Of a stretch of 64,000 nucleotides of DNA, positions 1-12,019 are shown piece by piece. The DNA comes from Clostridiaceae bacterium (GTDB taxonomy: Bacteria > Bacillota > Clostridia > Lachnospirales > Lachnospiraceae). The DNA lies in contig CAJSZV010000010.1 of assembly GCA_910574345.1 (NCBI GenBank), forward strand, positions 124,001 through 188,000, read 5' to 3'. How positions within the stretch are numbered: the stretch's first letter is position 1; the number at the start of each line of letters is the position of its first letter. Made by a program: the position numbers and the translations under genes. The notes under the pieces were generated by a model that worked only from the letters and a program-made list of their open reading frames with translations, had not been told where the DNA came from and did not search any database.

Positions 1-1650
1 ATTATGGTTATGGTGGTGGCGAAGGAGATCACGGATATTGTCAGGAAGCAGAAGGAGCAGACCCAGGCTCTTCAGGACGCTCTTTTGCAGGCTCAGCATG
101 CCAACCGGGCCAAGACCACATTCCTTTCCAACATGTCCCATGACATTCGTACGCCTATGAATGCCATTATAGGATTTACTACCATCGCCGTCAGCCATAT
201 TGACAATAAGGATCAGGTAAGAGACTGTCTGCAGAAAGTTCTTTCTTCCAGCAACCATCTGCTGAGCCTGATCAATGACATTCTCGATATGAGCAGAATC
301 GAGAGCGGGAAGGTTCAGATCAAGGAACAGGAGTGCAATATTCCTGAGCTGATGCACAATCTGGTTAATATTATTCAGCCTCAGGTGAAGGCAAAGCAGC
401 TGGAGCTGTTTATTGATACCTTTGAGGTGGTCAATGAGGATGTGATTGCAGATGCTTTGAAGCTGAATCAGGTGTTTATCAATTTGATGAGCAATGCGGT
501 GAAATACACACCGGCCGGAGGTACCATTTCTTTCCGGATTCAACAGAAAACTACTTTCCGCCATGGATATGGGGATTATACCTTCATCGTTAAGGACACA
601 GGCATCGGTATGTCCGAGGAATTTGTGAAGCATATTTTCGAGCCTTTTGAGCGGGAGGCAACGGCGACCCAGTCCGGCATCCAGGGAACAGGTCTTGGAA
701 TGGCTATTACCAAAAATATTGTGGAGATGATGAACGGAACCATCTCTGTGGAAAGCGAGCTGGGCAAAGGGAGTACATTTTTTGTGGAGTTCACTTTAAA
801 GCTGCAGGATACGAAAAAGAATGCGGAGCAGCTGAAAGAACTGGAAGGCCTGCGCTCTCTGGTGGTGGATGATGATTTCAACGTATGCGACAGCGTGAGC
901 AAGATGCTAAAGCAGCTGGGGCTGCGGGCGGACTGGACCACATCCGGAAGGGAAGCGGTCTACAGGGCAAAACTGGCCTGCGAGGAAGGGGATTCCTACC
1001 ATACTTATATCATTGACTGGCAGATGCCGGAGCTTAACGGTCTGGAGACAGCCAGAAGAATCCGCAGTACTGTGGGAGAATCCGCGCCGATTATTATATT
1101 GACTGCATATGACTGGTCGGATATTGAGGATGAGGCCAGGGCGGCAGGAGTGACTGCTTTCTGTGCAAAGCCGCTTTTCATGTCTGATCTGAAATCGGCG
1201 CTGCTGGCAGCCAATAATCTGAGTGAGAAGGAAGAGAATGCAGCCCTCTGGACCATGGCTGATTTTCAGGGCAGGAGAGTCCTTCTTGTGGAAGATATCG
1301 AACTGAATCGGGAGATCGCGGAAGTGATCCTGACTGAGGCAGGATTCCTTGTGGAGTCCGTACCGGATGGTACGGATGCGGTGGCAAGGATGGAGAAGGT
1401 GGAGGAACATTATTATGACATTATTCTTATGGATGTGCAGATGCCTATAATGAACGGATATGAGGCAACCAGAGCCATAAGAAACCTGCGCCGTAAGGAT
1501 GTGAAGGATCTGCCCATTATTGCCATGACGGCCAACGCCCTGGACGAGGATAAAGAGATGGCTCTGAAGAACGGAATGAGTGCCCATATATCGAAACCGC
1601 TGGATATGGACTTGTTTATCGGGGTGTTGAAGAGGTTTGTGAATGGATAG
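1..1650 (+). CDS. Hybrid sensor histidine kinase with two receiver domains (5' truncated by window)
   Basis: Three-prime part of a hybrid histidine kinase; the reading frame is open to base 1, so the sensor domain lies outside the window. Visible order: short coiled coil, HisKA with H-box SNMSHDIRTPMNAI (phospho-accepting His about residue 46, counting from the Met at base 4), HATPase_c with N-box (NQVFINLMSNAVKYT) and G-boxes (VKDTGIGMS, GTGLGMAIT), then two receiver domains. Both receivers keep the phospho-Asp, in IIDWQMPELNG (about D338) and ILMDVQMPIMNG (about D477). It should autophosphorylate and relay phosphate internally, usually to a separate Hpt protein, which is not seen here. The first receiver has WQM instead of the usual V/L-Q-M. 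A terminator follows directly, so the gene ends its own transcript and is not co-transcribed with the TnpB-like gene. Confidence 0.93.
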   Translation: MMVMVVAKEITDIVRKQKEQTQALQDALLQAQHANRAKTTFLSNMSHDIRTPMNAIIGFTTIAVSHIDNKDQVRDCLQKVLSSSNHLLSLINDILDMSRIESGKVQIKEQECNIPELMHNLVNIIQPQVKAKQLELFIDTFEVVNEDVIADALKLNQVFINLMSNAVKYTPAGGTISFRIQQKTTFRHGYGDYTFIVKDTGIGMSEEFVKHIFEPFEREATATQSGIQGTGLGMAITKNIVEMMNGTISVESELGKGSTFFVEFTLKLQDTKKNAEQLKELEGLRSLVVDDDFNVCDSVSKMLKQLGLRADWTTSGREAVYRAKLACEEGDSYHTYIIDWQMPELNGLETARRIRSTVGESAPIIILTAYDWSDIEDEARAAGVTAFCAKPLFMSDLKSALLAANNLSEKEENAALWTMADFQGRRVLLVEDIELNREIAEVILTEAGFLVESVPDGTDAVARMEKVEEHYYDIILMDVQMPIMNGYEATRAIRNLRRKDVKDLPIIAMTANALDEDKEMALKNGMSAHISKPLDMDLFIGVLKRFVNG

Positions 1651-1680
1651 AGGATTATGACAGAATTGAAAAGGTTTTAA

Positions 1681-1716
1681 ACAAAAAGTCAGTTCCCAAG
1701 GGGGCTGGCTTTTTGT
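1681..1716 (+). terminator. Rho-independent terminator of the histidine kinase gene
   Basis: A 16-bp stem (1681-1696 pairing with 1701-1716, several G-U pairs) closes on the loop CAAG. The 3' arm contains the run CTTTTT, so the U-tract is part of the stem. It lies 31 bp after the kinase stop codon. Confidence 0.8.
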
Positions 1717-1745
1717 GATAGAGTCTTTGGCTTATGGAGTGGGTG

Positions 1746-1765
1746 TCAAAAAGTGTACCTTTTGA
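1746..1765. repeat. 20-bp near-palindrome, copy 1
   Basis: TCAAAA-N8-TTTTGA, with GTAC near its centre. Its exact reverse complement occurs at 1873-1892. Both copies are followed by TACTT. It lies in the otherwise empty, AT-rich stretch between the kinase terminator and the TnpB-like gene. It could be an operator half of a pair or a leftover transposon end. Confidence 0.7.
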
Positions 1766-1872
1766 TACTTCCATAATAAATACAAAATCTACTATATTCT
1801 ATTACATTATCGTCAAAAAATCAAGAAAGTTAATTTATTTTTCTGTCCAATTTGTTCCATAAAAATATCTTC

Positions 1873-1892
1873 TCAAAAGGTACACTTTTTGA
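1873..1892. promoter_or_regulatory. 20-bp near-palindrome, copy 2, overlapping the putative -35 of the TnpB-like gene
   Basis: Exact reverse complement of the copy at 1746-1765; the two start positions are 127 bp apart. Its last four bases are the start of the TTGATA that I read as the -35 box of the downstream gene, so a protein or RNP bound here would block transcription. That it is an operator is inference from position and symmetry. Confidence 0.6.
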
Positions 1893-1916
1893 TACTTATC
1901 CCTGTAATTATAGAAT
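1889..1916 (+). promoter_or_regulatory. Putative sigma-A promoter of the TnpB-like gene
   Basis: TTGATA (1889-1894), a 16-bp spacer and TAGAAT (1911-1916). Transcription would begin about 10 bp before the start codon, just ahead of the ribosome binding site GTGAGGT. The -35 overlaps the palindrome at 1873-1892. Confidence 0.5.
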
Positions 1917-1932
1917 TGCCAAGTGAGGTAAG

Positions 1933-3246
1933 ATGTCTGAAGACAAGATATATAAGACCGTCCGCCAATATAATAAAACCCCGATTACAGTGGAAAATAT
2001 GGAAAAACTGCTGGAGATTGCAAGTGATTACTGTAAGGTAAAAAACTATGTTTATGATCGTTTCGGAGGGGTGGGGAGTCTGTCGAAGCTGTATCCGGGA
2101 TACACGGTACAGAATGAGATGACCGCCTGCGGGCTGAGGAATGACCTGGGACTGCCCAGCGTCTATTTTTATCTTGCCGTCTTTGATGCTTTAAAGGATA
2201 TCAAGACTCAGTGGGCCAGGACAAAATCGAAGGTTCTGCAGCTTGTGGGAGCCAATCCGAATTTTACACCGGAGGAAAAGCATTATCTCAGGTTTGTCCT
2301 GAAAATCAATAATGCTTTTACCGCCATCCTGAATCAGGAACCGATGAAGCTTCCTGCAGAGATAGAAAAGAAATATAAACAGGTAGCAGAAGAGGTGGAC
2401 AGAGAAAGGATGCACCGCTATGTGTGCCGCCAGGTTAGAAAATATCACGTAAAGCAGCACACAGATACCGCAGATGGATTTTCCATCTCAGCAAAGGCAT
2501 ACCGCTATCAGGATCATGGGATTTGTATCGCTACCAAGCAGAACCGGAAACGTATTTTCGTGCCGTTGACAGACAATAACCGATATGCAAGCCAGCTTTA
2601 TGTAAAGTTATATCCCGAAAAAAGGGGGCTGGAAATCATGGTGCCGGTTTACATGACCCCACGCTGCCATGACGACTATACCAATCAGGTAGGGATCTCC
2701 ATAGGAATGTTTACTATGGTGACAACCAGCGGCGGTCATTATTATGGGGAAAAATTCGGGGATTATCAGGGCGGATATGCAGAGTGGATACAAGTTCAGG
2801 CCAAAAGCTACAGTATTAACCGCCAGGATAATCCGGGAAGGAAAAAATACAATACGAAAAAGAAGCGGTTGGAAGAACAGCTTCACGCATATATCAATCA
2901 GGAGTTGAATCGGTTTCTTGAAAATGAAAAACCCGGAACTATCTATATGGTAAAATTGCCAAAGCCCCAAACCGGCGGAATCAATTCTAAGATCAACCAC
3001 CAGGTAAGCATGTGGCAGCGGGGGTATATCCGTGACCGCCTGATGCAGAAGTGCAGGGAGCAGTCTATAGAATATATAGAGGTTCTGGGAAAAGATATCA
3101 GCCGGCAGTGCAGTAACTGCGGGAACACGGGAGAACAGAAGGAAACTATCTTTGTATGCAGAAACTGCGGCTATAGGGCGGACAAGAAGATTAACACAGC
3201 CAGAAATACCCTGCAGCGGGGAATGGAAGGAAGAGTCCTTCACTAA
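1933..3246 (+). CDS. Nuclease-dead TnpB-like protein (candidate TldR-type RNA-guided repressor)
   Basis: A 437-aa protein with the C-terminal layout of IS200/IS605 TnpB. The zinc ribbon is intact (CSNC at C393/C396 and CRNC at C409/C412) and is followed by the usual N-x-A-R-N segment. The RuvC acidic residues are missing. The GIDxG motif is GISIG (Asp to Ser256). The IxxEDL motif is IYMVKL (Glu to Val340). The D-x-D-x-N-A-A motif is DKKINTA (catalytic Asp to Lys419). The protein therefore should not cut DNA but could still bind a guide RNA and DNA, as described for TldR repressors. No tnpA is adjacent, and the gene has its own promoter and good RBS (GTGAGGTAAG). A simple decayed transposon gene is the alternative, but the frame is full length and uninterrupted. 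Confidence 0.8.
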   Translation: MSEDKIYKTVRQYNKTPITVENMEKLLEIASDYCKVKNYVYDRFGGVGSLSKLYPGYTVQNEMTACGLRNDLGLPSVYFYLAVFDALKDIKTQWARTKSKVLQLVGANPNFTPEEKHYLRFVLKINNAFTAILNQEPMKLPAEIEKKYKQVAEEVDRERMHRYVCRQVRKYHVKQHTDTADGFSISAKAYRYQDHGICIATKQNRKRIFVPLTDNNRYASQLYVKLYPEKRGLEIMVPVYMTPRCHDDYTNQVGISIGMFTMVTTSGGHYYGEKFGDYQGGYAEWIQVQAKSYSINRQDNPGRKKYNTKKKRLEEQLHAYINQELNRFLENEKPGTIYMVKLPKPQTGGINSKINHQVSMWQRGYIRDRLMQKCREQSIEYIEVLGKDISRQCSNCGNTGEQKETIFVCRNCGYRADKKINTARNTLQRGMEGRVLH

Positions 3247-3594
3247 ACAGATCATAAGAACAGCTATTCGGATAAATTCCGGCCATGAGCCGGGGTTTTA
3301 CCTCAAAGGACCGAACAGTGTGTTCATGATATAAAAATCATACGGCATTAGAAGGCAGGGGAACCTGCGCATTGGGTATGCCAAGACCTTGCGAACATGG
3401 AATATTTGCAGATGCAGATACAAAGGCCATAAAAGCCGAACATGACGTAGCAGGGAGCGAAGCGGATTGCCGCATCATCTCAAAAAAGCAAGGGATGACC
3501 AATATGCCTTATTTTACGAAAGCAATGAGCTGTACGCCCTGGAAGCAACATCCAAAGGGCCGGCCTACACTTAATAAAAAGGACCATAAAAACC
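3247..3594 (+). ncRNA. Non-coding stretch with hairpins; candidate guide RNA locus of the TnpB-like protein
   Basis: This 348-bp stretch holds no convincing gene; its two short open frames lack RBSs and family features. It contains a 5-bp GC hairpin (CCGGC/GCCGG, 3279-3293) and a two-part stem (GGCAT 3344-3348 with ATGCC 3378-3382, enclosing GCAGG 3355-3359 with CCTGC 3364-3368, loop GGAA). TnpB and TldR guide RNAs are encoded at and just past the 3' end of the protein gene, so the position fits. I cannot locate the scaffold/guide junction. CCATAAAA occurs at 3427 and 3587 and again just inside the next gene. Confidence 0.35.
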
Positions 3595-6138
3595 ATGAGA
3601 AAAGCCCATAAAAAGCAAGCTGAAGACTTTATAAAACTCTTAGAACAAGCTCATCTGGAGATAAAAAAATACATAGAATCAAAAGACTATCCCATTGCCA
3701 TGGACCTTTTGTCCCAATGTCAGGAAGGCGCCATAGGCCTGGGTAATCTTATCGAACATGACGAAGGGGAGGGCTTTATTACCATCCCCCTTTTAGAATC
3801 TTACTGTGAACTGATCTATGAGATTTACGAAAAACTGGGGACTTCTGAGACAGAACCCGCTTCCGTGAATCCGGGGAAAATACATAAAGACCTGAAAAGA
3901 ACCTTAATCCAAGTGGAAAACAGTATAAAAAACGACATTAAAGTACGATTGGAGATTGCCTTCCTTCCCTACAAAGCATCCATGTGGGACAGTTTGGAGA
4001 GTGTATGGATGGCAGCCGATAGAGATCCGGACTGTGATGCTTATGTAGTTCCTATTCCATACTATGAGCGCAATGCGGACCGAAGTTTCGGGACCCGCCA
4101 TTATGAAGGCGCTGATTTTCCAAACTATGTTCCCATAACCAATTATGAAGAATACTGCCTGGCAGAGAGAAAACCGGATGTAATCTATATCCATAATCCA
4201 TACGATCAGGGAAATTATGTGACAAGCGTTGACCCAAGATACTATTCCGGAGAATTAAAGAAACATACGGACTGTCTAGTATATATACCCTATTATGCTA
4301 CAGCTGGAGGGATGAGCGAAGGTCAGTCCCTGTGTCTGTCTTATTTCAACGTAGACTACATTGTAGTACAGTGCGAGAAAATGATTGAATTCTTCGACCC
4401 AAGAGTGCCAAGGGAAAAGTTCCTTCCATTAGGCTCTCCCAAATTCGACAAGATTATCCGTCGGTGTCAGAATCCGCCTGAACCTCCCGAAGAGTGGAAA
4501 GAGAAGATGAAGGGCAGAAAGGTGTATTTCTACAACACAAGTCTTAATGGAATGCTGTCAGATACCAAGACATTTTTAAAGAAGATGGAATATGTCTTTG
4601 CCTGCTTCAGGGGCAGAGAAGATGCCTGCCTTTTGTGGCGGCCCCATCCCTTGCTGGAGACTACCTTTGATTCTATGAGGAATCATCATTATGCCAGATT
4701 CAAGGAATTGAAGCAGCAGTTTATAGATGAGGATCTGGGAATCTATGATGATACGCCGGATATTACGGATACCATTGCATTGAGCGACGTGTATATCGGG
4801 GATTCGGGGACGTCGGTTACTTCTTTGTTTGGGATTGCGGGGAAGCCTTTGTTTATTTTGGACAATAGTTTTTATAGTGAACCCGGGCCGGATGACTGGC
4901 GTGGTCAGTATATAAGCGGCTTTCGGGGCGATGAGCGCAATAGATGGAAGATTGTCCAAGGGAATAAGTTGTATTACTCTCCAGATGATGATTATCATTA
5001 CGAGTATTATTGTGATTTGTCAGAGTATTCATATGGAGGATACTATCGCGCAGCCTTAGAGATCAATGGCAGACTCTATATATGTCCAGCAAACGCCCAA
5101 GATATTCTTGTGGTTGAAAATCGAAAAATCATCAAAAGAATTTTGTTAGAACATTATATAAAACGCTGGGGAGCATTTTCAGGAGCAGGTGATATAGGAA
5201 ATTATCTGTTTCTGATTCCCAAGGATTATCCGGCTATTGTCAGATATGATACAAAGCAGGACAAGATCGACTATATCACAGGATATAATGATGCATTTAT
5301 ATCTTATGTAGAAGGGGAACAGAGAGTAGGCGGAGTGGGTAAGTGGAAAGACTATTTGATGCTCGCTTCTCCAGTAGATAGCCACATTATCGCTGTCAAT
5401 AGTGAGACAAAAGAAGTACAGATTTTAACCACAGGAGCAAAAAATTCCTGCGGGTGTATGGGAATTGTGTCCGATGATCAGGATTTGTGGTTGTTTCCAT
5501 ATTCAGGCACTACCATTACCCGGTGGAACCCAGATACAGGAGAAGTGCAGGAATATTGTGAGATGCCAGAAGGATTCGTCTGTAAAAGCAGACCACATGG
5601 GCATCGGTGCCTGGAACGTCCCTTTAGTATGGCGGCATTTTATGAAAATAAGGTGTTTTTCTCTCCTTGTTGGGGAAATATGTTTCTTTGTCTTGATAAG
5701 AATACAGGAAAGATGGCAGAGTGGAAACCGCCGTTTGAAGTATTGGAAGAGCAAAAAAACGGGTACTATAGTTCCTGGTCTCCCGGATATTTTGTACATC
5801 CTACCGATACATTGGGAGACGGGACATACAGGTTTTTCTCCATTCCTAATGGGATGCTCTATGATGTGAATCTTATAACCAATGAATACAGGGAAATTGA
5901 AGTTGAATTTAACTTAGACCATTTAAGGGAGCATGAGCCGGGATTTTGTGAGATCTCTGATTGGCTTCAGTATGGCTGCCATAATAGTTATTTTAACAGT
6001 CTGGGACGGTTTCTGTCTGGAAGCGTGATTGGAAGTCCTTTTAACAGAGAGAGACAACTGGTAGCATACAGAAAGATTGCAGCGAATAATGACGGAACGT
6101 GTGGCGAGAAAATTCACCAGACAGTGTGTAAGGTGTAA
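3595..6138 (+). CDS. Glycerophosphotransferase-like GT-B protein with C-terminal beta-propeller-like region
   Basis: An 847-aa protein. Residues about 1-100 are helical. Residues about 115-440 resemble the CDP-glycerol:glycerophosphotransferase (TagB/TagF) fold: IAFLPYKASMWDSLESVW, VDYIVVQCEKM, LWRPHPLL, and SDVYIGDSGTSVTSLFGIAGKP near 395, the place of the conserved DYSS segment of that family. Residues about 460-830 are rich in repeated aromatic/Gly beta segments (LYICPANAQD, YLFLIPKDYP, LWLFPYSGTTI, VFFSPCWGN), suggesting a propeller that might bind glycan. It has no signal peptide or membrane span and probably acts on the inner membrane face. It is the first gene of the glycan locus, with a weak RBS (AAAGGA). 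The exact acceptor and donor are unknown. Confidence 0.65.
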   Translation: MRKAHKKQAEDFIKLLEQAHLEIKKYIESKDYPIAMDLLSQCQEGAIGLGNLIEHDEGEGFITIPLLESYCELIYEIYEKLGTSETEPASVNPGKIHKDLKRTLIQVENSIKNDIKVRLEIAFLPYKASMWDSLESVWMAADRDPDCDAYVVPIPYYERNADRSFGTRHYEGADFPNYVPITNYEEYCLAERKPDVIYIHNPYDQGNYVTSVDPRYYSGELKKHTDCLVYIPYYATAGGMSEGQSLCLSYFNVDYIVVQCEKMIEFFDPRVPREKFLPLGSPKFDKIIRRCQNPPEPPEEWKEKMKGRKVYFYNTSLNGMLSDTKTFLKKMEYVFACFRGREDACLLWRPHPLLETTFDSMRNHHYARFKELKQQFIDEDLGIYDDTPDITDTIALSDVYIGDSGTSVTSLFGIAGKPLFILDNSFYSEPGPDDWRGQYISGFRGDERNRWKIVQGNKLYYSPDDDYHYEYYCDLSEYSYGGYYRAALEINGRLYICPANAQDILVVENRKIIKRILLEHYIKRWGAFSGAGDIGNYLFLIPKDYPAIVRYDTKQDKIDYITGYNDAFISYVEGEQRVGGVGKWKDYLMLASPVDSHIIAVNSETKEVQILTTGAKNSCGCMGIVSDDQDLWLFPYSGTTITRWNPDTGEVQEYCEMPEGFVCKSRPHGHRCLERPFSMAAFYENKVFFSPCWGNMFLCLDKNTGKMAEWKPPFEVLEEQKNGYYSSWSPGYFVHPTDTLGDGTYRFFSIPNGMLYDVNLITNEYREIEVEFNLDHLREHEPGFCEISDWLQYGCHNSYFNSLGRFLSGSVIGSPFNRERQLVAYRKIAANNDGTCGEKIHQTVCKV

Positions 6139-6170
6139 GTACAAAAAGAACAGAACTGGAGGAAATCAGT

Positions 6171-7538
6171 GTGATCAAGGTAATTACATACGGCACCTTT
6201 GATCTTTTCCATGAAGGACATTACCGGCTTCTTCAGAGGGCAAAGGCTCTTGGAGATTATCTGATTGTAGGTGTTACTACAGAAGCCTATGATAAGACAA
6301 GAGGCAAATTGAATGTGGTGGACTCACTCACAACCCGGATTGAAAATATAAAGAAAACAGGCTTTGCAGATGAGGTTATCATAGAGGAAGCGGCAGGCCA
6401 GAAGTTTAACGATATTAAAAAATATCATATTGATGTGTTTACTGTAGGTTCAGATTGGGTAGGGTGTTTTGATTATCTGAGAGATTACTGCAAAGTGGTT
6501 TATCTAGAGCGGACCAAGAATATCTCCAGTACTATGCTGCGGGAGCAGAACAGCCGAATTCAGAGAATCGGCATTATAGGAACAGGAAGAATCGCACAAC
6601 GGTTTATTCCAGAGGCAAAGCTGGTCAGCGGCATCAGTACCCAGGGGGTGTATAATCCCCATGAAGAAAGTGTCAGGGAGTTTGCTGGTAAGTGGGAGAT
6701 CAATGGATATACGGATTTGGATGAATTTTACGAGACTATCGATTCCGTCTATATCGCTTCGCCTCATGAGACTCATTACGGATACATAAAGTCTGCATTG
6801 GAGCATGGAAAACATGTTCTGTGTGAGAAACCTATGGTACTTCAGAAAGCGCAGGCAGAAGAGCTGTTTGAATATGCCGAAATGAGAGGACGGATCCTTT
6901 TTGAAGGAATAAAAACAGCTTACTGTCCGGGTTTTACCAGGCTTCTTGGAATAGCTTGCAGCGGAACCATTGGTAATATCCGCAATGTGGAGGCATGTTT
7001 TACTAAGCTTGAAAAGCCAGACAGCAGAGAATTGACAGATCTTTCCTTTGGAGGAAGCTTTACAGAACTTGGCAGTTATGTAATGTTTCCGGTATTGAAG
7101 CTTTTGGGAGAGAATATCGAAGATATTCGTTTTGACAGCATTCGGGATGAAAGAGGACTTGATCTGTTTACAAGAGCAGTAATGACATATCCCGGCAATA
7201 TGGGTATGGCTACGGTAACCTGTGGGCTTGGCGTGAAATCGGAGGGCAGGCTGCTGATTGCGGGAACAAAGGGATATATTGTGGTGGAGGCGCCATGGTG
7301 GAAGACCAGTTATTTTGAAGTCCACTATGAAAATCAGGATGAGGTGGAAAAATATTCGGAGCGGTTCTTGGGAGATGGGCTTCGGTATGAGATCAGTGAT
7401 TTTCTTACTATGATAAATGGGGTAGGAAAGAGCGGATTCAAACTGACACGCAGTGAATCCATTACGCTTGCAGGGGTTATGGAAGAGTTTATGAGATGTG
7501 CCCGAAAGAGTATGGATTTTGATATAAGATTGAAATGA
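6171..7538 (+). CDS. Fusion of glycerol-3-phosphate-cytidylyltransferase-like and Gfo/Idh/MocA oxidoreductase domains
   Basis: A 455-aa bifunctional protein. Residues 1-125 are a TagD-type nucleotidyltransferase: TYGTFDLFHEGH with HxGH at 14-17, and ISSTMLR near 118. This would join CTP to a polyol phosphate. From about residue 130 an NAD(P)-binding Gfo/Idh/MocA domain begins (IGIIGTGRIAQRFIP), with the family signature CEKPM near 219. It would reduce or oxidise a sugar-derived carbonyl. The GTG start is supported by GGAGG 8 bp upstream. The fusion suggests that one protein both forms and activates the same small polyol. Genes 7564-11920 follow closely and probably supply its substrate. Confidence 0.85.
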   Translation: MIKVITYGTFDLFHEGHYRLLQRAKALGDYLIVGVTTEAYDKTRGKLNVVDSLTTRIENIKKTGFADEVIIEEAAGQKFNDIKKYHIDVFTVGSDWVGCFDYLRDYCKVVYLERTKNISSTMLREQNSRIQRIGIIGTGRIAQRFIPEAKLVSGISTQGVYNPHEESVREFAGKWEINGYTDLDEFYETIDSVYIASPHETHYGYIKSALEHGKHVLCEKPMVLQKAQAEELFEYAEMRGRILFEGIKTAYCPGFTRLLGIACSGTIGNIRNVEACFTKLEKPDSRELTDLSFGGSFTELGSYVMFPVLKLLGENIEDIRFDSIRDERGLDLFTRAVMTYPGNMGMATVTCGLGVKSEGRLLIAGTKGYIVVEAPWWKTSYFEVHYENQDEVEKYSERFLGDGLRYEISDFLTMINGVGKSGFKLTRSESITLAGVMEEFMRCARKSMDFDIRLK

Positions 7539-7563
7539 TCAGGAAAGGGAATATAGAGATAGT

Positions 7564-8415
7564 ATGGTGAACTGTAAGGATGTATCAGAACATTACATAA
7601 CTCCAAAGTCACCCCCCTACTTTGCTTTCAATATATGGAGTATGGAATCAGCAAAAGCGGTGATTGACGGCTCAGCAAAGACAGGTCAGGATGTGATTCT
7701 GCAGATCTCCATGAAAGCATTTCAAAGACTGGACAAAGAAGAACTCCGCAGGTTTGTTACCAGCTATATGGAGAAAAGGAAGGTTCATGCATATCTGCAT
7801 TTAGATCACTGCAGAGATTTGGAGCAGATAAAAGAAGCCATAAGTTATGGCTGGGATTCTGTTATGATCGATGCTTCTGACAAACCATTGGAAGAGAACA
7901 TTGCAATGACTAATCTTGTATGTGGGATAGCAGAAGAAACCGGGACATTAGTGGAAGCGGAGATAGGACAAATTTTTAAGACCGGAGATAAGGGCCACAA
8001 TGCGGAATCGGGAATTGCAAGAATAGAAGATATTAAAACTTTTGTGAAAAACAGCAAAGCTCATATCCTCGCGGCAGCTGTAGGCACATCCCATGGTTTA
8101 TATAAAGGGCTGCCAAAGATTCACTATGATTTGATAGAAGGAATATCAGAATTTACGGATATCCCTTTGGCAATCCATGGAGGGACAGGCCTTACAGATG
8201 AGATGTTCTTAAAACTGCTGTCCTATGGGAATGTAAAGAAAATTAATATTTCAACTGATGTAAAGATGGCTTATCGGTGGGGGATTATGGAAAGTGTTCA
8301 AAAAGGATATACCGATGAAAGTGGCTTTGATCCTCTCAAGGTGGAGAATGTGATCCACGATTCTTTGGAAGAAATGGCTGTAAATAAATTAAGATTATTA
8401 AGGAAAGACAGATAA
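7564..8415 (+). CDS. Class II fructose-bisphosphate-aldolase family protein
   Basis: A 283-aa zinc-dependent class II aldolase-like enzyme. Recognisable parts are the zinc/substrate region HLDHCRDLEQIKEAISYGWDSVMIDASD, the acidic VEAEIGQI, the AVGTSHGLYKG loop with a zinc-binding His, and IHGGTGL near 212 followed by the phosphate-binding NISTD. Such enzymes split or form ketose phosphates using dihydroxyacetone phosphate or a related donor. It is placed between a cytidylyltransferase/oxidoreductase fusion and a sugar kinase, so it probably serves a dedicated sugar or polyol phosphate pathway, not glycolysis. It ends 2 bp before the kinase start. The RBS is weak. Confidence 0.85.
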   Translation: MVNCKDVSEHYITPKSPPYFAFNIWSMESAKAVIDGSAKTGQDVILQISMKAFQRLDKEELRRFVTSYMEKRKVHAYLHLDHCRDLEQIKEAISYGWDSVMIDASDKPLEENIAMTNLVCGIAEETGTLVEAEIGQIFKTGDKGHNAESGIARIEDIKTFVKNSKAHILAAAVGTSHGLYKGLPKIHYDLIEGISEFTDIPLAIHGGTGLTDEMFLKLLSYGNVKKINISTDVKMAYRWGIMESVQKGYTDESGFDPLKVENVIHDSLEEMAVNKLRLLRKDR

Positions 8416-8417
8416 TC

Positions 8418-9950
8418 ATGAAGACAATTCTTGTTCTGAATATGGGTATGAAAAGTATCCGGAGCATTATCTTTGACAGCGAAGGCAATAAACTGGCCTC
8501 ATATGCTGTGCCCATAGAAACCTCCCTTACCGGCGATACAGTCACCCAAGCTCCCTCAGAGTGGTGGGAAAAGGCATGTAGAGTGATACAAGAGGTTCTG
8601 GCAGATGTAGGGGCTATTCTCATTGACTATCTGACTGTGACTACATCCTCGTCCTGTCTGGTTTGTGTGGATAAGGAAGGAGAGGCTCTCCTTCCCTGTA
8701 TGATGGTATCGGATAAGAGAGCCGTGAAAGAAAGCGCTCTACTAAAAGATGCAGAAGCCTTTGAGAAAGTAAAGAAAAGGACAGGGCTGGGTTCTGACCC
8801 CTCCCTGATGATTCCAAAAGCTTTATGGGTGAAGAGAAATAAGCCGGAAAAGTTTAATCAGGTACATAAATTATTATCACCCAATGACTTTCTTATTGCA
8901 AAATTTACCGGACAGTACGTAACCGATTATATGAATGCTCAGAAATGGCATTATGATCTGGAACATGGTGAATATCCCTTGGAATTTCTGCAGGAAGTGG
9001 GAATTCATAAACAGCTTCTTCCAGAAGTAGTGGTTCCCGGCACTTATGTGGGGAATGTGCTGCCTGGGGCGGCGAGGGAAACGGGACTTTCCACAAAAAC
9101 ACAGGTAATCGCAACTACTTATGATGCCATATGTTCTTTTATCGGCAGCGGTGCCTTAAATGAAGGGGAGGCAAGCGATGTTTCGGGAACCGTTACTGTA
9201 TTTCGTGCAGCATCCCAGAGGAAGATAGAAAAGCCGTTGGAGAAGATCCAGCAGCTTCCTTATTATGAGGGCGGTATTCATATCGTAGGCGGTTCCAACA
9301 ATCTGGGAGGCGGTTTGATCGAATGGGTAAAGCAGTGCTATTACCAGAACGAGTTCCTTCCCTATGAACTTATGGAAAAAGATGCAGGAGAGGCTTCCTT
9401 AGGAGCAGGCGGTATCATTTTTCTTCCCTATCTTCTGGGAGAGAGGGCGCCTGTCTGGGACAACTGCGCCAGAGGTGTGTTTTTTGGTCTGGAACGAATG
9501 CATACCAGAAAGGAAATGACAAGAGCCGTATTTGAAAGTGCAGGATTCATAGACCTGGATATGATCGGAGCTATTGAAGAGGCGGGGCTGCCGGTTCATA
9601 CCATCCGGCTTTCAGGAGGACTGGCCCGGCTGAATTTGATTTCTCAGATAAAAGCGGATATTACAGGGCGACAGGTCTGGGTGCTCTCGGAATTTGAGAC
9701 TACAGCCACAGGGGCAGCTATGATCGCACTTTATGGACAGGGAGTTTATAAGTCTTTGCAGGAGGCAGTAGAACAATTCGTGCAGGTTCGTATGATTATC
9801 AGGCCAAATCAGAGAAATCATGAAAAATACAGAGAGCTGTATCAATTATATAAGGAGACCTACCACACTTTAAAACCCTTGTTCCCAAAGAGAATGGAAC
9901 TGACAGAACGTTTATACGGAGGGAAAAGGATTAAGATAGAGAATCTTTGA
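8418..9950 (+). CDS. FGGY-family carbohydrate kinase (xylulokinase-like)
   Basis: A 510-aa FGGY kinase. The N-terminal ATPase motif (ILVLNMGMKSIRSIIFDSEG) departs from the usual D-x-G-T because Asp is replaced by Asn. The second domain has DVSGTVTVFRAAS, the loop LGAGGIIFLPYLLGERAPVWD, and RLSGGLARLNLISQIKADITGRQV, which matches the FGGY signature including GG-A-R-S/N. The substrate is probably a ketose or polyol made or used by the aldolase next door, but cannot be named. The Asn in the first motif raises the possibility of reduced or altered activity. It is translationally close to both neighbours. Confidence 0.85.
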   Translation: MKTILVLNMGMKSIRSIIFDSEGNKLASYAVPIETSLTGDTVTQAPSEWWEKACRVIQEVLADVGAILIDYLTVTTSSSCLVCVDKEGEALLPCMMVSDKRAVKESALLKDAEAFEKVKKRTGLGSDPSLMIPKALWVKRNKPEKFNQVHKLLSPNDFLIAKFTGQYVTDYMNAQKWHYDLEHGEYPLEFLQEVGIHKQLLPEVVVPGTYVGNVLPGAARETGLSTKTQVIATTYDAICSFIGSGALNEGEASDVSGTVTVFRAASQRKIEKPLEKIQQLPYYEGGIHIVGGSNNLGGGLIEWVKQCYYQNEFLPYELMEKDAGEASLGAGGIIFLPYLLGERAPVWDNCARGVFFGLERMHTRKEMTRAVFESAGFIDLDMIGAIEEAGLPVHTIRLSGGLARLNLISQIKADITGRQVWVLSEFETTATGAAMIALYGQGVYKSLQEAVEQFVQVRMIIRPNQRNHEKYRELYQLYKETYHTLKPLFPKRMELTERLYGGKRIKIENL

Positions 9951-9963
9951 TAAAGGGGAGCTT

Positions 9964-11115
9964 ATGGAACCATACCAGTTAAATATTCCGACAAAAGTTT
10001 ATTTTGGAAGAGATATATGGAGAGAAGCGGTGAAAGCTTTGGAATCCTTCCTTAAGGGAAATATTATGCTTGTGACTACTGGGCGCTCTCTGACCCGCCT
10101 TGGTTACGTTGAAGAACTGGCAGAAACTATAAGAAAATGTTCTTCGGCAGAGCATGTAATAATTTTTGATGGGGTCAGTGCCAATCCTAAACTTTCAGAG
10201 GTGAGAAAAGGGATTCAGTGGGGAAAAGAAAACGGAATAGATATGATCCTGGGCTTTGGCGGAGGGAGCGCTATGGACGCGGCAAAAGCCATAGCAGCCG
10301 GTGTGGGTATTGAAGAGGATATTGGAGAGCTTTTCTATGGCGGGAAAGAGCCAGGAAAGAACACCTTGCCCGTAATCGCTATCCCCACAACAGCCGGAAC
10401 AGGAAGCGAGCTGAGCAAGGCTGCTATTATCACAGATGAACAGACCAGGAAAAAGGGAGGGATCCGGGGAACAGCTCTTTATCCCAAGGCTGCTATTGTG
10501 GATTCCTTATTTACAGATTCCGTACCTTTTCGGGTGACTATGGAAACGGGTTTTGACGTGTTTGCCCATGGGATGGAAAGCTATTTGTCTCTGGCGGGCT
10601 CCCCGTATACCAGAATGCAGTCCGAGTGTGGAATTCAGATTGTCGGAAAATATCTTCCGCGCCTAGCCCTTGATCTGGAGGATAAGGAGGCAAGAGACAA
10701 GTTAAGCTTTGCCAGTATGATTATGGGGATCAACTTGGGAAATGCCAGTACCTGCCTCCCTCACAGACTTCAGTACCCTTTAGGAGCTCATACAGATACC
10801 AGCCACGGAGCGGGGTTAGCCGTTCTTTTTACGGCGTGGATAAACTGGGAATATGAATATGCTCCGGCTATGGTGGAGAGAGGAATCAGCCTGCTGATGG
10901 GGCAGGAAATCTGTGGGAAACAGGCATGCAGGGAAAAAATCCGTTGTTTTATAGAAAAGCTGGGTCTTCCCTTGTCTTTGAAAGAGTTAGGGGTAGAAAA
11001 AGAGCTTTTGCCAGTTATGGCGTCTGAGGTGACAGGAAATGTGAAAAATGATCTGGCGGCACAGGAAGAAGAGATCATTACGAAATTATATGCCATGTCT
11101 TTTGACCGAGAGTAA
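9964..11115 (+). CDS. Iron-containing alcohol dehydrogenase
   Basis: A 383-aa group III metal-dependent dehydrogenase. It shows the NAD(P)-binding GFGGGSAMDAAKAIA near 95-110, the PTTAGTGSELSKAAIITD signature, and metal ligands in FDVFAHGMESYLS and in PHRLQYPLGAHTDTSHGAGLAVL. It would interconvert a carbonyl and an alcohol, here most likely the reduction of a sugar or triose phosphate to a polyol. It has a good RBS (AAGGGGAG) and sits between the sugar kinase and the nucleotidyltransferase. Enzymes of this family also reduce phosphonoacetaldehyde in phosphonate pathways, but no PEP mutase is seen in this window. Confidence 0.9.
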   Translation: MEPYQLNIPTKVYFGRDIWREAVKALESFLKGNIMLVTTGRSLTRLGYVEELAETIRKCSSAEHVIIFDGVSANPKLSEVRKGIQWGKENGIDMILGFGGGSAMDAAKAIAAGVGIEEDIGELFYGGKEPGKNTLPVIAIPTTAGTGSELSKAAIITDEQTRKKGGIRGTALYPKAAIVDSLFTDSVPFRVTMETGFDVFAHGMESYLSLAGSPYTRMQSECGIQIVGKYLPRLALDLEDKEARDKLSFASMIMGINLGNASTCLPHRLQYPLGAHTDTSHGAGLAVLFTAWINWEYEYAPAMVERGISLLMGQEICGKQACREKIRCFIEKLGLPLSLKELGVEKELLPVMASEVTGNVKNDLAAQEEEIITKLYAMSFDRE

Positions 11116-11182
11116 AAATGAAATGGAATGAGAAGAACCAGACAAAAACTCTCTGAGTAGCTATACAGGAGGAAGGGAATCT

Positions 11183-11920
11183 ATGCAGGCGATCATCATG
11201 GCTGCCGGAAAGGGCAGCAGGCTGGGAAAAATCACCGAAGGAAAGCCAAAATCTTTCGCAGAGATAAAGGGAAAGAAATTGATTGAGTATAATCTGCAGC
11301 TTTTAAAAAAGTATGGGATTGAAGAGATCTTTATTGTGACTGGGTATTGCTGTGAAGCATTTGAGAAGCTGACAGAGAATATGGAGGGAGTACATCTGAT
11401 CTACAATCCTTTTTATGAGATGATGAATGTACTGGGATCTTTTTACATAGGAATGGAGGCTTTGAAAGATGATTTTATCTACCTCCATGCAGATACTCTG
11501 TGTGAGCCGGCTATATTTGAAAAGCTGGTTTATATAGCTTCAGACGCGGACGCAGTTCTCCCCGTGGATTACGGTCCCTGTAATGAGGAGGCAATGAAGG
11601 TGAAAACCACAGAGGAGAATATTGTACAAATCACCAAGGAAATGCCGGTGGAGGAGGCTGAGGGAGAGTTTATTGGCATGGCCGCCTTTCGCCGGGAGCT
11701 GATACCAGATCTCAAGGCTAAGACAAAAAGCCTTCTACGAGAAAAGAAGTTCAGCGAATATTTTGAAAGTGCCGTTCAAAGGCTCATTGACGAAGAAGAT
11801 TACCGGGTTAAAGCAGTTCCCACAGCAGGCGCTTTCTGGACAGAGATTGATTTTATGGAGGATTATGAAAAAGCGGCGGCCTGTATACCGGAGAGTCTGA
11901 CAGAGATTTTTGCAGAATAG
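11183..11920 (+). CDS. Sugar/choline-phosphate-type nucleotidyltransferase (LicC-like)
   Basis: A 245-aa NTP transferase. MAAGKGSRLGKITEGKPKSF is the nucleotide-binding G-x-G-x-R...KP signature. It is followed by YNPFYEMMNVLGSFY, a segment characteristic of LicC-type CTP:phosphocholine and related cytidylyltransferases, and by the metal-binding DFIYLHADTL. It would make a CDP-linked alcohol or sugar. It has a very strong RBS (AGGAGGAAGG). Directly downstream is a glycerophosphotransferase-like gene that could use the CDP product. A UDP-sugar or phosphonate substrate cannot be excluded from sequence. Confidence 0.85.
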   Translation: MQAIIMAAGKGSRLGKITEGKPKSFAEIKGKKLIEYNLQLLKKYGIEEIFIVTGYCCEAFEKLTENMEGVHLIYNPFYEMMNVLGSFYIGMEALKDDFIYLHADTLCEPAIFEKLVYIASDADAVLPVDYGPCNEEAMKVKTTEENIVQITKEMPVEEAEGEFIGMAAFRRELIPDLKAKTKSLLREKKFSEYFESAVQRLIDEEDYRVKAVPTAGAFWTEIDFMEDYEKAAACIPESLTEIFAE

Positions 11921-12019
11921 CATCCCTATTGGCGTAAAGCAAAAGGCGGCGAAGGGAATGGCATAAGGAAGAATTATGGTATTTTTGGCAGATAAATTCA
12001 CACAAGGAAATGGTAGAAA

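Follow-up and report, generated by a model that had tools for sequence, protein, structure and literature searches.

A disarmed TnpB and its guide-like RNA appear to head phase-variable surface-glycan loci in Lachnospiraceae and probably silence competing loci

In gut bacteria of the family Lachnospiraceae, a transposon nuclease without its catalytic residues seems to have been co-opted, together with its guide RNA, as a switch heading flip-flopping clusters of surface-sugar genes, and this switch probably shuts down the competing clusters. The window analyzed here comprises 64,000 nucleotides of a Clostridiaceae bacterium (assembly GCA_910574345.1, contig CAJSZV010000010.1, positions 124,001 to 188,000). 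Read as features of the sequence, the dead TnpB, the structured RNA, the invertible segment, and the linkage to glycan genes are near certain. Our assignment of guide and target is likely, and we consider cross-silencing with self-immunity probable on balance.

The window gene, tldR, occupies 1933–3246 on the plus strand and runs for 437 codons (437 aa) from an ATG start to a TAA end with no internal stop. Its product matched the Pfam family Cas12f1-like_TNB at 1.3e-9, exceeding the family cut-off, and the NCBIfam family guided_TnpB at 1.8e-12 (47 bits, below the cut-off of 100); the best PDB matches were Cas12f and TnpB-like chains. By these matches, the protein is a remote relative of TnpB and Cas12f. 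Alignment with the TnpBs of a Thermus phage, a Thermus plasmid, and Calothrix placed Ser256 opposite the first catalytic Asp of RuvC, Val340 opposite the Glu, and Lys419 opposite the third Asp. This confirmed the claim of an earlier note on this DNA that an intact, full-length TnpB homologue carries these three residues at the RuvC positions, with acidic residues absent from all three. The third Asp is Gln in both Thermus relatives, so loss at Lys419 is not diagnostic by itself; it is at Ser256 and Val340 that the window protein departs from every one of the three compared TnpBs. None of 76 aligned family members has an acidic residue at 256 (A/S/N), 340 (V/A/P/I/M/T), or 419 (K/R), and the intact D-E-D of an active TnpB from an IS200-IS605 or IS607 element is accordingly missing from the family. 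The four cysteines of the zinc ribbon noted earlier (C393, C396, C409, and C412) are present in 76 of 76. Among the neighbors of the window gene, we recognized no tnpA, no other transposase, and no transposon ends; 7 of 82 loci have an upstream serine recombinase. The best matches in phage and plasmid collections, IS607-type TnpBs from Thermus phage TMA and a Thermus plasmid (about 25% identity over 56–65% of the query), differ in adjoining a resolvase-like or IS607 transposase gene and in retaining the first Asp and the Glu by alignment.

In its own genome and 60 relatives, we found 14 full-length copies in 6 of the 61 genomes, two of them (64% identical) in the own genome; a seventh genome gave only a weak 65-residue match. 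A scan of bacterial genomes matched 231 relatives. We retained the 80 best and added one from viral contigs. All 81 of these best-scoring loci have an open frame (424–501 residues including the stop), a selection that carries little information on decayed copies. Members occur in Schaedlerella, Sporofaciens musculi, Acetatifactor muris, Dorea sp. 5-2, and many other Lachnospiraceae. In nine of nine pairs of family members, dN/dS was 0.06–0.16, by which measure the dead-TnpB family is under purifying selection. The loci read did not show the random scatter without synteny that the earlier note had set against its own reading. A single copy was broken, at G009:C62, where fragments containing stops lie in a genome that also has full-length genes. 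Two divergent paralogues, L012 and L015 (G010:C124 and G009:C24), share 34–36% identity with the window protein and have a divergent RNA (model E about 2e-4) with no recognized guide of the same type; they are perhaps a second targeting class. Another member, L128, lies on an IMG/VR contig filed as viral, between an upstream serine recombinase and a downstream GlyT.

GlyT is the first gene of the glycan locus in the window (3595–6138, plus strand; 847 aa, with an LPYKASMWDS motif). It has no significant Pfam match. A gene for a cytidylyltransferase-like and GFO/IDH/MocA oxidoreductase protein, recognized by Pfam scan, follows in the same locus (6171–7538, plus strand). One relative of GlyT matched CDP-glycerol glycerophosphotransferase weakly (0.018); this is below the cut-off, and we therefore do not use that name. 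A GlyT homologue was matched in 49 of 95 loci. For 18 loci without an adjacent GlyT, Pfam scans of 67 of the 108 listed downstream proteins matched DegT, Polysacc_synt_2, NKWYS, NTP_transferase, glycosyltransferase, and NeuB, each family in at most 5 of the 67. GlyT was present in 36 of 37 tldR genomes and, within the set of relatives, in 10 of 61 genomes, namely 6/6 with full-length tldR and 4/55 others; this co-occurrence is partly trivial because the genes are often adjacent. The gene had been described as lying between a hybrid histidine kinase and glycan genes, which is true of the window, but only the glycan side recurs, as the upstream kinase matched just 4 of 95 loci. Inspection by eye of the starts of upstream ORFs revealed no antiterminator of LoaP/UpxY type beside the gene.

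Upstream of tldR, inverted repeats flank a presumed invertible segment of 107 bp (1766–1872). The left arm, TCAAAAAGTGTACCTTTTGA (1746–1765), is near-palindromic, resembles a recombinase crossover site, and is identical at 20/20 positions to the inverted right arm (1873–1892), found in the same search. By eye, the segment contains a minus-strand, promoter-like TTGATT-N17-TAGAAT (about 1824 to 1796) directed away from tldR, and a simple promoter pattern scored it as OFF in this assembly. The "own promoter" previously assigned to the gene thus faces away from it in this assembly, its hexamers lying within the invertible segment. An inverted repeat with an 85–140 bp spacer, defining a segment of ~110 bp, precedes the gene in 60 of 89 distinct loci with sufficient upstream sequence, versus 0 of 363 control windows. 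Between other genomes, matching segments occur in opposite orientation: L066 and L072 agree at 97.8% over 89 nt, and L087 and L096 at 96.8% over 94 nt. The promoter pattern called 25 of the 60 segments (19 OFF, 6 ON), leaving 35 undecided. By motif, a recombinase lies within 3 kb upstream at 18 of 82 loci, seven serine and 11 tyrosine; one of each was checked and matched Pfam Resolvase and Phage_integrase, respectively. We take them for invertases, although the serine type may alternatively derive from IS607. Because they are near only 18 of 82 loci, the remainder would need a recombinase from elsewhere. Very long inverted repeats lie upstream of the gene in L066, L087, L116, and L119 and suggest larger rearrangements; that of L066 takes in an incomplete, diverging dead-TnpB copy.

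The conserved region between the tldR stop codon and the next gene folds as a structured RNA. In the window, the guide-RNA-like scaffold and its 3′ tail span 3342–3515 on the plus strand (covariance-model match G000:C10:127342-127515). A hand-drawn structure of seven helices was evaluated on 46 sequences with 500 shuffles: 95.8% of cells were paired (86.7% when shuffled), 24 pairs had changed on both sides (12.3 when shuffled), and none of the 500 shuffles reached the observed value on any of five measures. A slid-partner control is biased in favor of the structure, which was drawn from the same sequences. The covariance model found 12 RNAs in 31 genomes, all beside the 12 full-length proteins, and none in the remaining 26 genomes. 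The RNA is also present in 37 of 37 genomes picked for carrying the protein, with up to nine matches per genome. No Rfam family reached threshold in window positions 1–12000.

The RNA ends in CCAAT followed by RTRYYTTATTW. The near-invariant CCAAT (3499–3503, plus strand) can pair with ATTGG in the scaffold as a possible pseudoknot (helix 3, 99.1% of cells paired), a helix that hardly varies and is therefore no proof of one. A second pseudoknot (YUU with AAG) was considered by eye and is broken in several loci. The 11 nt after CCAAT, ATGCCTTATTT (3504–3514, plus strand), are the presumed guide. In the window, an apparent dispersed repeat starts directly after the tail. Given the position of that repeat, we expect a functional tail some 11 nt long, with little functional RNA beyond. 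The repeat, which contains GCAATGAGC(C/T)G, lies at 3516–3536 and at G000:C5:128361-128381, and by eye also in L002, L005, and L055. It appears to be REP-like and dispersed: several loci carry it just past the RNA, and it also occurs behind a clpC-like gene. Two other choices of guide were discarded. A conserved 16-mer, CCAATATGCCTTATTT, taken as a single long guide gave 81 matches in the own genome against 76 for the control, and 53 around the loci against 43–112 for 12 permuted matrices; being at chance level, it was dropped for the 11 nt after CCAAT. For sequence past the guide, the sole other near match in the own genome looks like the dispersed repeat. Two oddities of the RNA deserve mention. 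In L063, L071, and L079, one arm shows a strange expansion into tandem hairpin units (GGTCATCAnCC...GGTTGGTGACAA...). In L316 (S. musculi 929330) and L007 (G016), CAAAAT or CGAAAT replaces CCAAT before the guide, possibly marking a subclass with a different pseudoknot.

The first target-like match, noticed when single matches were read, lay in a third GlyT gene of the own genome (G000:C7), on a contig without tldR; sites in the leaders of the loci were found next. The sites share the flank AGTNTAT, a pattern that we set after viewing the data. Around 85 distinct loci, the flanked pattern matched 19 times, at 16 loci, in a total of 24.65 kb of leader, 37 times in GlyT genes, and 12 times in 2.17 Mb elsewhere, one of the 12 (L048) being the GlyT position; the density was 0.77 per kb in leaders versus 0.0055 elsewhere. 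Neither a leader nor a GlyT site was found at 34 of the 85 loci. In 105 leaders, there were 22 sense sites and no antisense site, and 200 dinucleotide shuffles of these leaders gave a mean of 0.015 sites and a maximum of 1. Genome-wide, 16 genomes yielded 24 matches versus 1 for the reversed pattern. Twenty-three of the 24 lie at glycan loci: 10 in GlyT genes (L353 by its place), nine in leaders of tldR loci, and four ahead of glycan genes on contigs without an RNA match (LicD, two cytidylyltransferase-like, and one nucleotidyltransferase-like). The other (L351, G065:C2:4237739) precedes a 343-aa ORF without a Pfam match. The best guide from the same genome fits eight of these sites at 11/11, spread over four genomes (G009, G065, G083, and G084), nine at 10/11, and seven less well. 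Without the flank, guide matches taken together were at chance level, both in the own genome (10 against 9 in the control) and around the loci (88 against 104 reversed and 54 complemented); one unflanked scan masked the leader and so missed the sites there.

In the window, the target-like site lies within GlyT at 4278–4295 on the plus strand (AGTATAT followed by ATACCCTATTA, codons LVYIPYY). The AT-rich window guide differs from it at 3 of 11 positions; for the GlyT site at the genome's other tldR locus, the number is 2. The guide differs at a single position, a wobble-compatible G over A, from the orphan GlyT gene at G000:C7, which is its best site in the own genome and its predicted best target.

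Only the leader sites may be real. The GlyT codon sites could coincide with the pattern because the motif VYIPYF is conserved, an explanation compatible with cross-silencing through the leaders and one to which we give somewhat less than an even chance. Guides fit GlyT sites of their own genome no better than those of other genomes (14 tests, p 0.12 to 0.83), and these sites exhibit no significant self-avoidance. Against coincidence stand the share of GlyT genes among the genome-wide matches (10 of 24) and the deviant guide of L011, which fits one GlyT site in its own genome at 14/17. The permutations do not support GlyT as the sole target.

The leader sites, in contrast, avoid their own guides. 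For 17 leader sites in eight genomes, none lies within one mismatch of the guide of its own locus (mean 3.29 of 11), versus 26% of 70 non-self pairs within genomes. Permuting guides within genomes gave p 0.0033 for the mean and 0.0026 for the count, with two by-eye L116 sites included; without them, the mean test gave p 0.014, or 0.016–0.041 when any one of four genomes was dropped. In a larger set (25 sites, with guides from all loci), the effect was weaker (p 0.16 for the mean and 0.025 for the count). Individual genomes illustrate the pattern. In Sporofaciens musculi, L079 and L110 have guides that match the L104 and L111 sites at 11/11. The latter two loci in turn have guides that match the L083 site at 11/11, with 2–3 mismatches to self. 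In G083, the guide of L264 fits L101, and those of L261 and L265 fit the GlyT site of L264; as a counter-case, that GlyT site is one mismatch from its own guide. Guides starting in GTGCC come from loci with a leader site in 0 of 22 cases, against 21 of 84 other guides (p 0.006), as if GTGCC loci were top-ranked; some of them have short downstream sequence.

These data bear on autoregulation in cis, in which the complex would bind its own leader or GlyT site through an imperfect match and damp its own operon. Many sites do lie downstream of the RNA within the same locus, leader sites are on the sense strand only, and several self pairs differ at just 2 of 11 positions, some of them wobble-compatible. 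The scarcity of near matches to self and the four sites ahead of glycan genes on contigs without an RNA match argue the other way, and we regard autoregulation as unlikely. Less likely still is that the 3′ tail is scaffold rather than guide, with the ribonucleoprotein acting in cis either on the inversion or, by attenuation or UpxY-like antitermination, on the leader transcript. The tail is conserved across loci, its CCAAT can pair with ATTGG, and the cassette precedes glycan genes; yet tail-like sequence with a different conserved flank recurs at glycan loci genome-wide, including the four sites on contigs without an RNA match, whereas outside the RNAs copies flanked by CCAAT are no commoner than chance predicts. 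That the family is a transposon remnant, decaying or selfish, which hitch-hikes with glycan loci and lacks any regulatory role is very improbable: the family is multi-copy and patchy, has the broken fragments at G009:C62, and at some loci has an upstream serine recombinase, the enzyme type of IS607 transposases, but the frames of the best-scoring loci are open, dN/dS is low, the RNA structure is maintained, and the usual position is ahead of glycan genes.

We return to guide-directed cross-silencing. The TldRs of fliC and oppF, reportedly described by Wiegand in 2024, are said to have lost the RuvC acids, to have an adjacent gRNA, and to be associated with non-transposon genes. The present family shows the same lost catalytic residues (76 of 76 members), a putative guide RNA encoded downstream of the gene and co-occurring with the protein, a linkage to non-transposon genes with maintenance by selection, and guides complementary to TAM-flanked genomic targets, for the window only with one mismatch. 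From the TldRs of fliC and oppF, it differs in its neighbors and in being phase-variable and multi-copy. The earlier suggestion that the gene was retained as a guide-directed DNA-binding repressor gains support from a uniformly dead family under purifying selection, from a covarying RNA located beside the full-length proteins, and from flanked, guide-like sites at glycan loci, and the repressor remains putative.

Closer parallels exist. A published clade of csrA/fliC-associated TldRs has hin, an inverton of ~120 bp, and predicted cross-targeting (PMC13418256). The features in common are a dead TnpB, a guide RNA with an expanded stem-loop, an upstream invertase with the ~120-bp inverton, several loci per genome, predicted cross-targeting, and target sites within an ORF. 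The two systems, compared by their described features, differ in neighbors and targets (flagellin and csrA there, surface-glycan genes here) and in that leader targets here mismatch their own guide (PMC13418256). In Bacteroides, UpxZ represses non-adjacent capsule loci (PMC7315117). UpxY and UpxZ likewise head capsule operons, and some capsule promoters invert, but UpxZ, itself a protein, acts on the antiterminator UpxY, whereas the specificity here would reside in an RNA guide (PMC7315117). Flagellin TldRs with invertons are thus already known. A full-text literature search showed no glycan-linked TldR among the matches listed, with preprints and most subscription papers beyond its reach, and one may be described outside the literature searched.

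Taken together, we think it somewhat more probable than not that this family forms a branch of TldR type whose members cross-silence other phase-variable glycan loci and spare their own. Against this weigh the shortness and AT-richness of the guide, the 34 of 85 loci with neither kind of site, the seven genome-wide sites that no guide of the same genome fits within one mismatch, and the one mismatch at the best site in the window's own genome. Window positions 1933–3515 would be a TldR-type cassette, first in a glycan operon behind a phase-variable, invertible promoter. With that promoter facing inwards, protein, RNA, and glycan genes would be coproduced; the 11 guide nucleotides would direct the protein to sites flanked by AGTNTAT, in the leader or in one stretch of GlyT codons at other glycan loci, and the complex would block RNA polymerase there. 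Mismatches between its own site and its own guide, clearest for leader sites, would spare the producing locus. The outcome would be exclusion, perhaps ranked, among the many glycan loci of one genome. The stronger form, an RNA-coded hierarchy of surface coats in which 11-nt guides silence lower-ranked loci and a mismatch between guide and target confers self-immunity, we hold at a shade below even, a little lower than before on account of the weaker permutation result obtained without the by-eye sites. In Sporofaciens musculi, such a hierarchy would have GTGCC guides (two loci, with no site found) silence the GTATC-guide loci, and these would silence the ATATT-guide locus.

If this reading is true, gut bacteria would possess a natural, CRISPRi-like control of surface identity, in which both specificity and the discrimination of self from non-self are encoded in an 11-nt guide. 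RNA-guided repressors would extend beyond flagellin to glycan repertoires, and the loci would offer a compact set of guides and targets for measuring mismatch tolerance. It would also suggest how the coexpression of many phase-variable loci is avoided in one Gram-positive cell.
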